64,000 bases of DNA from Gemmatimonadota bacterium (GTDB lineage: Bacteria > Gemmatimonadota > Gemmatimonadetes > Longimicrobiales > Gaopeijiaceae): contig SKKN01000023.1 in assembly GCA_007121455.1 (NCBI GenBank), positions 124,001-188,000 of the forward strand. Direction: 5' to 3'. A program made the translations under genes and the position numbers. Of this stretch, positions 23,348-53,925 are shown one piece after another. Each line of letters opens with the position of its first letter. Positions within the stretch are counted from its first letter, which is position 1. A model generated the notes under the pieces. The model searched no databases, was not told the origin of the DNA, and saw nothing but the letters and a program-made list of their open reading frames with translations.

Positions 23348-23851
23348 ATGACCGAGTCCCCGACCGGCATCGTAGAAGCCCGCAGAAAACGACTTTCCCA
23401 GGAGCTCGGGCGCGCTCTCACGCATCCGACGGCTCCACCGGACCTGACTCCCCTTACGGAGAAGAGGAAAGTCTACCTGATGGAGGAGGCCCAGGACCTC
23501 TACTGGAACGAGCTCGAGTGGGAGCGCGTCACGGATGAAGAACAGGTCGATGGGGAGCCTCTGGCCGAACTCATCTTTCCCGGTTTCCTCGCGTTCATCC
23601 GGGGCCTTCTTCTGGAGGAGGTGCCGGCCGATAGTTTGGCCGGCCCGCAGCCGCGACCGGAGGTGGTCGAAGACATCATCCTTTTCCTCGCGCACCGCCT
23701 GGTCGATCTCCGGAGTGAGGTGAATGGCGCGAACGGGGACCGGGAGCAGCGTCAGGAAGAAGAGGTGCTCACCAGCCGCCTCCTGGACCTCACCCTGAGA
23801 GAGTATCACGGCGTCTCTTCGGAGGAGGTGGAGGGAGGGGCCGGCCGCTGA
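23348..23851 (+). CDS. Hypothetical acidic protein
   Basis: A 167-residue soluble, acidic, mostly helical protein. I do not recognise a family. It has no cysteines, signal peptide or membrane segment. Coding is supported by codon bias and by tight coupling to the next gene, whose apparent CTG start overlaps this stop. The ATG at 23348 follows AGTGGAGAATC. Confidence 0.65.
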   Translation: MTESPTGIVEARRKRLSQELGRALTHPTAPPDLTPLTEKRKVYLMEEAQDLYWNELEWERVTDEEQVDGEPLAELIFPGFLAFIRGLLLEEVPADSLAGPQPRPEVVEDIILFLAHRLVDLRSEVNGANGDREQRQEEEVLTSRLLDLTLREYHGVSSEEVEGGAGR

Positions 23852-24708
23852 CCCGCTTCCCGCGCGCGCGTCCCGGCCATTCGTTCTTCGCCGGCGCCCC
23901 TCTACTGATCGGCCATCGGGGCGGCGCTCGCCTCCGGCCTGAGAATACCCTCACCGCGCTCATGAGCGCGGTGAGGGACTGGGGGGCGGATATGCTGGAG
24001 TTCGACGTTCGTGCCACGCGGGACGGGGAGATCGTGGTCCTTCACGACCCGACGGTCGATCGCACGACGGACGGCACCGGCCCCGTTCGGGAGATGATGT
24101 GGGATGAGGTTCGACAGCTCGACGCGGGGTACCGGTTCCGAGACCTCGACGGTACCCACTCCTGGCGGGGGCGCGGGGCGGGGGTCCCGCGCTTCGAGGA
24201 GGTCCTCGAAGCCCTCCCCGACATCCGGATGATCGTAGAGGTCAAGTCTCCGGATGCAGCGCCGGGCCTCGTTCGGATCGTAAGGCGCCACGGCGCCGAG
24301 CAGCGGGTTCTGATGGCCACGGCGGAGGAGGGGGCCCGGGCGTCCCGCCACGGCTACAGGGGTCCGTCGAGTGCCACGCGTCGCCAGATTCGGCTCTTCA
24401 TGCTTCTGCAGCGGATGGCGCTTGGCTCTTTCTATACCCCCTCGACCGACGCCTTCCAGATCCCGGACAGCTGGAAGGGGCGGGAAGTGGCGACCCTACG
24501 ATTCGTCGAGGAGGCACATGCGAGGAACATGCCCGTCCATGTCTGGACGGTGAACGAACCCGCCGACATGCGGCGCCTCCTCCGACTCGGAGTCGATGGC
24601 ATCCTCTCGGACCGGCCCGATGTCCTCTCCCGCGTCCTCACGGAGGTCACGGGGCGGCCGCCGGCTCCAGCGGATCGAGGCAGCCCGGAGGAGAGCGTCC
24701 GACCGTGA
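23848..24708 (+). CDS. Glycerophosphodiester phosphodiesterase, apparent CTG start
   Basis: A 286-residue GDPD-family enzyme that hydrolyses glycerophosphodiesters to glycerol-3-phosphate and an alcohol. The family's opening motif GHRGGARLRPENT (23911-23949) and the catalytic segment EFDVRATRDGEIVVLHD are in one frame, followed by EVKSP and VHVWTVN. The first ATG in that frame (23962) lies after the essential HRG..PENT motif, and no upstream ATG, GTG or TTG is in frame. A CTG at 23848 overlaps the previous stop as CTGA, 7 bp after GGAGGGAGGGG, and is the best start. The stop overlaps the tilS start. Confidence 0.82.
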   Translation: MTRFPRARPGHSFFAGAPLLIGHRGGARLRPENTLTALMSAVRDWGADMLEFDVRATRDGEIVVLHDPTVDRTTDGTGPVREMMWDEVRQLDAGYRFRDLDGTHSWRGRGAGVPRFEEVLEALPDIRMIVEVKSPDAAPGLVRIVRRHGAEQRVLMATAEEGARASRHGYRGPSSATRRQIRLFMLLQRMALGSFYTPSTDAFQIPDSWKGREVATLRFVEEAHARNMPVHVWTVNEPADMRRLLRLGVDGILSDRPDVLSRVLTEVTGRPPAPADRGSPEESVRP

Positions 24709-26087
24709 CGGACCTCGCCCGCCGCCTCGTGCGCCGGTCGGAGGGCGAGGGTTGGTTCGCGGAAGGAGATCGGGTGCTCGTCGCGTTCTCCGGCGGCTTG
24801 GATTCATCCGTGCTCCTCCACCTCCTTCGCTTCACTCCCGAGCTCCCGGAAGTGGAGGTCCACGCCGCCCATTTCGATCATCGGATGCGGCCGGGAAGCG
24901 AGGAGGACATGCTCCGATGCCGGGGCACGGCTCGCGCGTGGAGCGTCCCCTTCCACGGAGGAGAGGCCGCCAGCCCGCCTTCCAACGAGAGCGAGGCGCG
25001 GGACCTCCGGTATGACTTTCTCCTCGAGCGGCGCGTCGCTCTGAAGGCACGGTGGCTGGTGACCGCCCATCACGCAGACGACCAGGCCGAGACGGTCCTC
25101 TTCAGAATGTTGAGGGGAACGGGGCCCCGGGGGCTGGCCGGCATCCCTGCAACTCGCGCCCCGAGCGTCCTCCGGCCCCTGCTCCCCTTCTGGCGGAAGG
25201 AGCTGGAAGCCTATGCCTCCCGGGCAAAGCTGCGACCGGTGGAGGATCCCACGAATCACATCCTGCACCCGGCCCGGAACATGCTCCGGCGGGAGATCCT
25301 TCCCCGGGTGGAGGAGAGGGTGGCGCCGGGGGCGCGAAAGGCGCTCGTCCGGCTGGCTTCCCTGCAGGGGGAGAGGGAGGTGGCGGCCGAGTTCCTCGTG
25401 CGTCACTGGCTCGAATCCGTCGGCTTCGAGATGACCGAGGACGGAGCGGGAGAGGTCTCCATCTCGTTGCCTCGGGGTCGCCTTGTCGAGCTTCCCCGAG
25501 AGGTGCTCGCGGAGGTGGTCCGGTACCTCCTTCGCCAACTGGGCAGCGTGCCGAGCCACTCTGGAACCGGGACCATCGTGGAGTTTATCAACAGAGGTTC
25601 GAGCGGGCGGAGCCTCCGCCTTCCTGGAGGGATTACTCTCGCCCGCGAATTCGACTTCATCCTCCTCAAGAGATCGGGCCTTGACCCCACCCCAGCGGAG
25701 GACCGGCACCTCGAAATCGGGGGCGACCAGGGGGAAGGCACTTTCGTGGTGGCTGGGCGCGCGATGCGGGCTCGCTGGAGTCGTAGGCGAGAGCCGGTGG
25801 GTGAGGGGTGGCCGGCGAGCATCCGGGCTTCAGGGCTCGCAGGCCCGCTTCGGCTTCGCGGATGGGCCCCGGGCGATCGGATCCGGCTGTCCCATGGCTC
25901 GAAGAAGCTGAAGAAACTGTTCGTGGAGCGCAGGATCCCGTTGAGCGAGCGGGCCCGGACTCCGGTGCTCGCCGATGGGAGGGGCCGGATCCTGTGGGTT
26001 CCAGGGGTCGCCATCGACCCCGAGGCGGAGGCGGTAGCCGGGGTCGATCCCCTCTTCCTGAAGGTAGGGGAGGATCACGGTGCCTGA
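24705..26087 (+). CDS. tilS: tRNA(Ile)-lysidine synthetase
   Basis: A 460-residue N-type ATP pyrophosphatase. The PP loop is VAFSGGLDSSVLLHLL. TAHHADDQAETVLFRMLRGTG follows, and TilS-type substrate and C-terminal domains run to the end. It converts C34 of tRNA-Ile(CAU) to lysidine, allowing AUA decoding. The GTG start overlaps the GDPD stop (GTGA). The tilS-hpt-ftsH order is conserved in many bacteria. Confidence 0.95.
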   Translation: MTDLARRLVRRSEGEGWFAEGDRVLVAFSGGLDSSVLLHLLRFTPELPEVEVHAAHFDHRMRPGSEEDMLRCRGTARAWSVPFHGGEAASPPSNESEARDLRYDFLLERRVALKARWLVTAHHADDQAETVLFRMLRGTGPRGLAGIPATRAPSVLRPLLPFWRKELEAYASRAKLRPVEDPTNHILHPARNMLRREILPRVEERVAPGARKALVRLASLQGEREVAAEFLVRHWLESVGFEMTEDGAGEVSISLPRGRLVELPREVLAEVVRYLLRQLGSVPSHSGTGTIVEFINRGSSGRSLRLPGGITLAREFDFILLKRSGLDPTPAEDRHLEIGGDQGEGTFVVAGRAMRARWSRRREPVGEGWPASIRASGLAGPLRLRGWAPGDRIRLSHGSKKLKKLFVERRIPLSERARTPVLADGRGRILWVPGVAIDPEAEAVAGVDPLFLKVGEDHGA

Positions 26088-53128: not shown

Positions 53129-53925
53129 CCCTCCTCTCCTCGAGCGGGAGGTCGCTCCTCCGTCGGCCCGTGCGCGGAGGCGTGTTCGCTCGCCCATTCA
53201 AGGAGCGTTTTCACCCGATTCGTGGTGATCCGGCGGACACCGAGCGCCTCGAGCCGGGTGGCGTCCTCCGTACGGTCGACGGTCCAGGTAGACAGGGCGA
53301 TCCCGGCTCGCAGGGTCCGTTCGGTCCAATCGGGATGCCGCAGCAGGATCCGGAAGTCGGGCACCAGTAGGGCACGGGGATCCCCTGTCACGTCCTCAAG
53401 CGCGTGGTCGAGTCGTGCCTCCCCCTCGACCACGTAGCCGAGGCCGATCGTGGGATCCATGGCCCGCAGGCGCCTCAGGAGCCGGTGTTCGAGGGAGAGG
53501 AAGGTGCAGCGCTCGTGGAGCCCGGCTTCGCGAACCAGGTAGAGCATGGCCTCGAGCGCTTCCGGGTTCGGAGCGGCTTTGATCTCGGGATAGACCCGAT
53601 CCGCCTCCCGCACCGCATGGAGAGCCTCCTGGAGGGACGGGAGAGGCTCCCCCCGGAAGCGAGAGGAGAACCAGGCGCCGGCATCGAGAGATCGAAGGTC
53701 CTGGAACGTCCGCTTCTCGACGGAACCTGAGCCATCCGTGGTTCGATCGAGCGTCGAATCGTGGAGGAGAATCGGGGTGCCGCAGGCGGTGACCCGAACA
53801 TCCCACTCGAACGATCGAGCCCCGGCGTCGACGGCGGCCCGGAGAGCGGCGAGCGTATTCTCCGGAGCGACTTCGCTGAAGCCCCGGTGAGCGATGATCT
53901 CGATGGATCCTTCACAGCTCGTCAC
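53125..53925 (-). CDS. Glycerophosphodiester phosphodiesterase
   Basis: A 266-residue GDPD enzyme. The catalytic HRGFSEVAPENT and EWDVRVTACGTPILLHDSTLDRTTDG segments, YPEIKA and STWTVD are present. It releases glycerol-3-phosphate, the substrate of the coupled glpD gene, so the pair forms a phospholipid-headgroup catabolic unit. A GTG at 53925, 12 codons before HRG, was chosen; the longer frame would overlap the upstream DUF2911 gene. Confidence 0.9.
   Translation of the reverse strand: MTSCEGSIEIIAHRGFSEVAPENTLAALRAAVDAGARSFEWDVRVTACGTPILLHDSTLDRTTDGSGSVEKRTFQDLRSLDAGAWFSSRFRGEPLPSLQEALHAVREADRVYPEIKAAPNPEALEAMLYLVREAGLHERCTFLSLEHRLLRRLRAMDPTIGLGYVVEGEARLDHALEDVTGDPRALLVPDFRILLRHPDWTERTLRAGIALSTWTVDRTEDATRLEALGVRRITTNRVKTLLEWASEHASAHGPTEERPPARGEEG

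Follow-up and report, generated by a model that had tools for sequence, protein, structure and literature searches.

The gene encoding a glycerophosphodiester phosphodiesterase (GDPD) in the window, by which we mean the whole 64,000-nucleotide stretch of Gemmatimonadota DNA that was analysed, very probably begins at a CTG codon overlapping the stop codon of the preceding gene as CTGA. Comparison of orthologous sequences points to this start position, finds the CTG conserved in three genera behind a strong Shine-Dalgarno sequence, and locates beside it the point at which constraint on the GDPD reading frame sets in.

Results

By family match, the product of this gene is a GDPD. The match to PF03009 extends over profile positions 1-243 of 244 and protein residues 23-258, counted from the CTG, and H23, R24, G25, P31, E32, N33, T34, E51, D53, H66 and D67 are invariant in the six aligned sequences. 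HRG, PENT, E-x-D and HD are motifs which we take to be those of the GDPD family. The sequence also matches the GDPD proteins of PDB entries 8ghh and 2pz0, including the HRG region (alignment inspected for 8ghh only), and the best NCBIfam equivalog model scored below its cutoff (141 against 450 bits), so that the family assignment does not extend to an exact substrate. In an AlphaFold model (six sequences, mean pLDDT 73.5) strand 1 comprises residues 19-23 and helix 1 residues 34-45, and a start at residue 39 would, according to this model, remove the first strand. A second, distant GDPD paralog with 34% identity is found on the minus strand of the window at 53185-53910.

The features of the locus are given in Table 1. 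GDPD is the second gene of a tightly packed row which opens with the gene for a 167-aa protein and continues, after GDPD, with TilS and a phosphoribosyltransferase-like gene (the latter named by reading only), and which probably forms one operon; homologs of the 167-aa protein are located upstream of GDPD in 73 of the 105 family loci. The GDPD coding sequence also harbors a perfect 30-bp palindrome (window 23948-23977) centred on ATG 23962. This palindrome is the sole copy in the genome, even when up to three mismatches are allowed, and forms a 13-bp hairpin when folded (z -2.8 for a 90-nt region). Its centre encodes L-M, where four of five aligned relatives have F-R and one has F-Q, and a template-switch mutation might leave such a state.

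Table 1. Features of the GDPD locus, in window coordinates
Feature	Position	Strand	Basis or remark
Upstream ORF, 167 aa	23348..23851	+	without Pfam or NCBIfam match; conserved
TGA bounding the GDPD frame on the upstream side	23716..23718	+	sequence
GGAGGGAGGGG, Shine-Dalgarno sequence in the last codons of the 167-aa ORF	23830..23840	+	predicted duplex -11.2 kcal/mol
CTG, inferred GDPD start codon	23848..23850	+	unique candidate, orthologs, frame constraint
TGA stop of the 167-aa ORF, overlapping CTG as CTGA	23849..23851	+	sequence
GDPD coding sequence, 286 codons counted from CTG	23848..24708	+	Pfam PF03009, E 6.9e-44
HRG codons, residues 23-25	23914..23922	+	counted from CTG
PENT codons, residues 31-34	23938..23949	+	counted from CTG
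First in-frame ATG, residue 39, inside model helix 1, palindrome centre	23962..23964	+	not ATG in L002 or L003
GTGA junction of GDPD and tilS	24705..24708	+	tilS = 24705-26087

The initial annotation, made from the letters of the window, had claimed that GDPD can only start at CTG and that HRG and PENT are encoded upstream of the first in-frame ATG, and both claims are supported. Upstream, the GDPD frame extends without interruption to TGA 23716, and among ATG, GTG, TTG, CTG, ATT, ATC and ATA codons it contains, before the ATG at codon 39, only CTG 23848, CTG 23905 and ATC 23908; from TGA 23716 to 23905, CTG 23848 is the sole ATG, GTG, TTG, CTG or ATH codon in frame. The gene resembles a CUG-start gene in having no ATG, GTG or TTG at or before its conserved N-terminus. 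Judging from the codons that such programs allow, an annotation limited to the usual start codons would shorten GDPD and lose the active site. The overlap with the previous stop as CTGA and the Shine-Dalgarno sequence ending 7 nt before the CTG, both described in the initial annotation, were found as described, and a 4-nt overlap with an upstream Shine-Dalgarno sequence is the arrangement of a termination-reinitiation pair. Likewise, the window has in-frame NTGA junctions with ATG (6), GTG (7) and TTG (2), in agreement with what had been noted for neighboring operons.

A comparison with orthologs, which had been proposed as a check, places the start at the same codon, as the nearest orthologs, from two other genera, carry CTG rather than ATG or GTG at the equivalent site. 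The search covered 121 genomes of the family, 108 of which matched at E <= 1e-60, and 105 loci were read after the matches of G081, G124 and G136 had been left out (contig edge or partial). In 100 of these loci an ATG, GTG or TTG is found 36-140 nt before the HRG motif and, when the canonical codon nearest to -56 nt is taken as the start, 90 of the 100 start at -48 to -63. Each of 12 loci from other families of the order (L018-L024 and L026-L030) also has an ATG, GTG or TTG in the 36-140 nt range. The five family loci lacking such a codon, namely the window (L001), L002, L003, L007 and L103, all display an in-frame CTG, at -60 nt from HRG except in L007 (-63), whereas only six of the 100 normal-start loci have an in-frame CTG at -57 to -63; this placement is beyond chance. 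In L001, L002, L003 and L007 the CTG forms a CTGA with the stop of the homologous gene upstream; in L103, whose sister L079 has a GTG at -60, that gene ends 25 nt short of the CTG. In a tree of 104 loci built with a quick method (L117, too short, was left out), L001, L002 and L003 form one clade of three genera (SH-aLRT 99), with the CTG common to the clade down to 67% protein identity, and L007 and L103 stand apart; the CTG label calls for three changes in all among the 104 loci, counted without direction.

Reading-frame constraint switches on near the CTG. Codon differences were counted in the GDPD frame over the three pairwise comparisons of L001-L003, and codons -13 to -1, after the CTG, displayed 19 synonymous and 6 nonsynonymous differences. 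Directly after the CTG, codons -19 to -14 form a six-codon stretch without conservation (4 synonymous, 12 nonsynonymous), and before it, in codons -30 to -21, a single synonymous difference was found alongside 22 nonsynonymous ones, with changes peaking at what is the third codon position in the frame of the upstream gene. The three loci share 18 leucine columns, and the start column is the only one with CTG in all three; the CTG has thus been kept as CTG where leucine codons drift.

The Shine-Dalgarno sequences tell the CTG loci apart as well. Predicted anti-Shine-Dalgarno duplex energies, calculated with a fixed short anti-Shine-Dalgarno sequence that was assumed and not read from the organism's own genome, are -11.2, -11.2, -11.5, -9.3 and -5.9 kcal/mol at the five CTGs (L001, L002 and L003 at about -11), and the median at the 100 normal starts is -4.55, with three of the 100 at or below -11. 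The difference between CTG and normal starts gave a Mann-Whitney p of 6.5e-4, and of 7.0e-4 when each normal locus takes its best candidate, kinship being uncorrected in both. The Shine-Dalgarno sequence of L007 is spaced just 3 nt from the CTG, and that of L103 is moderate. Stronger Shine-Dalgarno sequences are reported to be a tendency of GUG and UUG starts (PMC5622118), and extended Shine-Dalgarno motifs are described at conserved AUU and AUA starts of Staphylococcus aureus (PMC13009471).

A later start, at CTG 23905, ATC 23908 or ATG 23962, would make use of the next possible start codons in frame, and several relatives do have an ATG at -6 nt. We nevertheless regard it as highly improbable, since the RPGH..AGAPLL stretch upstream is conserved, with changes that are mostly synonymous, and a start at ATG 23962 would drop HRG, PENT and strand 1 of the model. 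Moreover, ATG 23962 has no Shine-Dalgarno sequence before it (1.9 kcal/mol) and is absent in L002 and L003, whose first ATG, GTG or TTG downstream of HRG is a GTG lying three codons beyond that position. Just as improbable is a fusion protein made by ribosomes that undergo a -1 slip on reaching the upstream stop and continue into GDPD: the two frames do meet at CTGA, and a gene pair of Mycobacterium tuberculosis is described as showing stop codon suppression at an AUGA overlap (PMC11260477), but in many relatives gaps part the two genes and GDPD starts at ATG or GTG, reading of the junction revealed no slippery heptamer, and the strong Shine-Dalgarno sequence suits initiation. A sequencing or assembly error hiding a normal start, which the initial annotation had named as a possible refutation and which might be suspected in an 80-contig assembly, has next to no probability, because the identical CTG is found in the separate assemblies of two other genera, the three being about 67% identical in protein.

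The CTGA junction is by itself a common feature. It occurs in frame at the upstream stop in 9 of the 68 normal-start loci with an identified upstream gene, and in 17/209 and 25/396 adjacent same-strand pairs in two samples of the own genome, GDPD and lnt included; since a normal start is found near most in-frame CTGA junctions of this genome, such a junction is no proof of a CTG start on its own. In the 775-kb sample that contains the 396 pairs, CTGA was found 25 times (median Shine-Dalgarno energy -4.2), ATGA 48 times (-7.2), GTGA 46 times (-6.7) and TTGA 11 times (-3.8). No normal start lies within 10 codons in eight of the 25 CTGA cases, and four of these eight are below -6 in Shine-Dalgarno energy, among them GDPD and lnt, both backed by orthologs, and one that was rejected. 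In the control genome G011, CTGA occurs in 19 of 246 pairs; six of these lack a normal start within 10 codons, ftsB being the only one of the six with an energy below -6. Upon reading, the CTGA at a glycosyltransferase-like gene (L200:2827) and at an ABC-transporter-like gene (L211:10657), both named by reading, were rejected as CTG starts, as were four more of the eight cases read, in which a canonical alternative is present; lnt, also among the eight, was retained. By the same kind of reading, an ORF with CTGA at window 50289 seems to be a spurious frame, and a frameshift, not a CTG start, seems to lie behind a GAF-like ORF on L218.

A strict coding-potential screen flagged 2 of 536 genes in 775 kb of the own genome (G000), namely GDPD and a probable frameshift; in the control genome G011, of which 400 kb were sampled, it flagged 4 of 303 genes. 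CTG starts are therefore rare and no commoner in the own genome than in the control, and these counts lend no support to CTG as a genome-wide habit or to a relaxed start choice in the lineage. The exact pattern of the initiator-tRNA anticodon arm was found in 7 of 10 genomes, the own genome included (matches being pattern hits only), and was not found in G001, G015 and G086, which are 88, 92 and 76% complete; matches with a single mismatch were at the level of a control pattern. In the own genome this anticodon-arm scan found nothing pointing to an altered initiator tRNA.

Unusual starts were also found at lnt. A first search matched lnt in 33 of 58 sampled family genomes and supplied 30 loci, 29 of which were assessed (L249 was set aside). 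Eight of these have no ATG, GTG or TTG in the interval that begins 30 codons upstream, or at the limit of the frame where this is nearer, and runs to codon +11. In the own genome (L225), G001 (L226) and G015 (L228), which stand for the three genera of the GDPD CTG clade, lnt appears to start at a CTGA over the previous stop, with Shine-Dalgarno energies of -6.6, -11.9 and -11.0, respectively; each of these loci has another CTG 7 codons further upstream, with a weaker Shine-Dalgarno sequence. When a different lnt was used as the query, 45 of 121 genomes matched, and the 30 loci obtained were examined together with 11 earlier ones. A Gfo/Idh-like homolog (named by reading) lies upstream of lnt in 22 distinct genomes; in 17 of them there is an in-frame 4-nt overlap between its stop and lnt, which the other five lack, two of these not having the genes adjacent. 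Thirteen of the 17 junctions have ATA as the overlapping codon (10 ATAG and 3 ATAA; L342-L344, L347-L349, L351, L357, L359, L362, L364, L368 and L252), distributed over eight genera, and the remaining four are GTAA, CTAG, GTAG and GTGA; in L351, one of the 17, the upstream match covers only part of the query. Elsewhere in those Gfo/Idh-like ORFs A occupies 8.2% of third positions (409/4976), and the excess of ATA has a binomial p of 1.4e-11, with rows treated as independent although they are related. The next normal lnt start lies 25-86 codons on in four of the 13 ATA loci (L348, L359, L364 and L357), and 2-16 codons on in the others, which could therefore start later. On this comparison, ATA is a probable conserved AUA start codon of lnt in the eight genera. 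Alternatively, a promoter -10 box (TATAG or TATAA) may be the reason for the A-rich junction, but it would not explain the missing normal starts.

Among 30 ftsB loci, only that of G011 (L295) is without a normal start within -10 to +12 codons, and its codon at the start is CTG (Shine-Dalgarno -11.0), as against TTG (-10.3) in the genus-mate G039 (L296); in the own genome the ftsB junction at window 17255 is TTGA. Two adjacent genes of an apparent capsule/EPS locus in the own genome, one Wzi-like and one MarR-like (L200:17000 and L200:18548), have seeming CTG starts with strong Shine-Dalgarno sequences. Among five MarR-like orthologs, the corresponding codon is GTG in two, another two carry an ATG 3-4 codons earlier, and the fifth has CTG at this codon but also TTG 7 and 11 codons earlier. 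In the Wzi-like gene the CTG precedes an apparent signal peptide (by reading) and a TTG follows 10 codons on, its homologs being uninformative.

Discussion

In order to account for initiation at the GDPD CTG, we hypothesize that either a ribosome that has just completed the upstream ORF or a newly recruited 30S subunit would be held by the very strong Shine-Dalgarno sequence in the E-G-G codons, 7 nt before the CTG, and would initiate there with fMet despite the mismatch at the first position. Structures of the 70S ribosome with CUG in the P site are described as having weak first-position pairing (PMC11497404). So weak a codon would lead to low output, partly offset by the Shine-Dalgarno sequence, and low expression may be the reason for keeping CTG. 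Initiation probably takes place after the upstream gene has been finished, although we can only infer this coupling to the stop, given that in L103 the upstream stop lies 25 nt before the CTG.

It is quite possible, if somewhat short of probable, that in this family 4-nt overlaps together with strong Shine-Dalgarno sequences let the start drift from ATG, GTG or TTG and that the new codon is then kept, as CUG in GDPD and lnt of the three-genus clade and as AUA in lnt of eight other genera. If so, reinitiating ribosomes would depend more on the Shine-Dalgarno sequence and on position than on codon identity, and whether a stop/start overlap relaxes the need for a proper start codon is a question that can now be tested. 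Starts other than ATG, GTG and TTG are deemed exceptional in bacteria, in contrast to the three changes to or from CTG among the 104 loci of a single family. CTG is reportedly annotated as start in only 20 of nearly 85,000 genes of model genomes (PMC11983097, citing Hecht et al.), and 2 switches from AUG to CUG are reported in 61,358 reconstructed AUG starts (PMC5622118). Programs for gene finding that accept only three start codons would truncate genes of this kind, with loss of catalytic residues. Two published observations count against the GDPD CTG: a CUG of Caulobacter dnaA with a Shine-Dalgarno sequence gives a toeprint and yet is described as unused in vivo (PMC8443254), and in mycobacteria CTG is reported not to be enriched at leadered positions (PMC4633059).

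The open-access literature searched on CTG, CUG and AUA starts, on termination-reinitiation and on start codons of Gemmatimonadetes does not name GDPD or lnt. It does include one paper, a metagenomic salt-resistance screen (PMC4602150), in which Gemmatimonadetes, start codon and CTG come up together. A CTG start is nonetheless of a known kind and, as far as the literature was searched, novelty lies in the gene concerned, its lineage, the stop/start overlap and the persistence of the CTG in several genera. The closest parallel is Rep of the RepFIB replicon of F-like plasmids, which starts at CTG (PMC11983097). Like GDPD, rep combines a CTG start with a good ribosome-binding site; it is usually annotated at a later start, and a change of CTG to CTC abolishes its function (PMC11983097). 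Unlike GDPD, whose start is placed by sequence comparison, rep is a plasmid gene and its start was proven by N-terminal analysis and mutation, and the passages seen of that paper mention no stop/start overlap comparable to the CTGA of GDPD (PMC11983097). In S. aureus, cvfC1 (AUU) and ccpN and infC (AUA) share with GDPD a non-canonical start, an unusually strong Shine-Dalgarno sequence and evolutionary conservation, and are described on the strength of retapamulin profiling and, for some, reporters; they differ in the codon, CUG being absent from that text, and in belonging to the Firmicutes (PMC13009471). Finally, the ATGA and GTGA junctions described for termination-reinitiation have the same 4-nt overlap and a Shine-Dalgarno sequence inside the upstream gene (PMC6728339, PMC10666635), and GDPD differs from these systems, as there described, in presenting CTGA and in a coupling that is here presumed.
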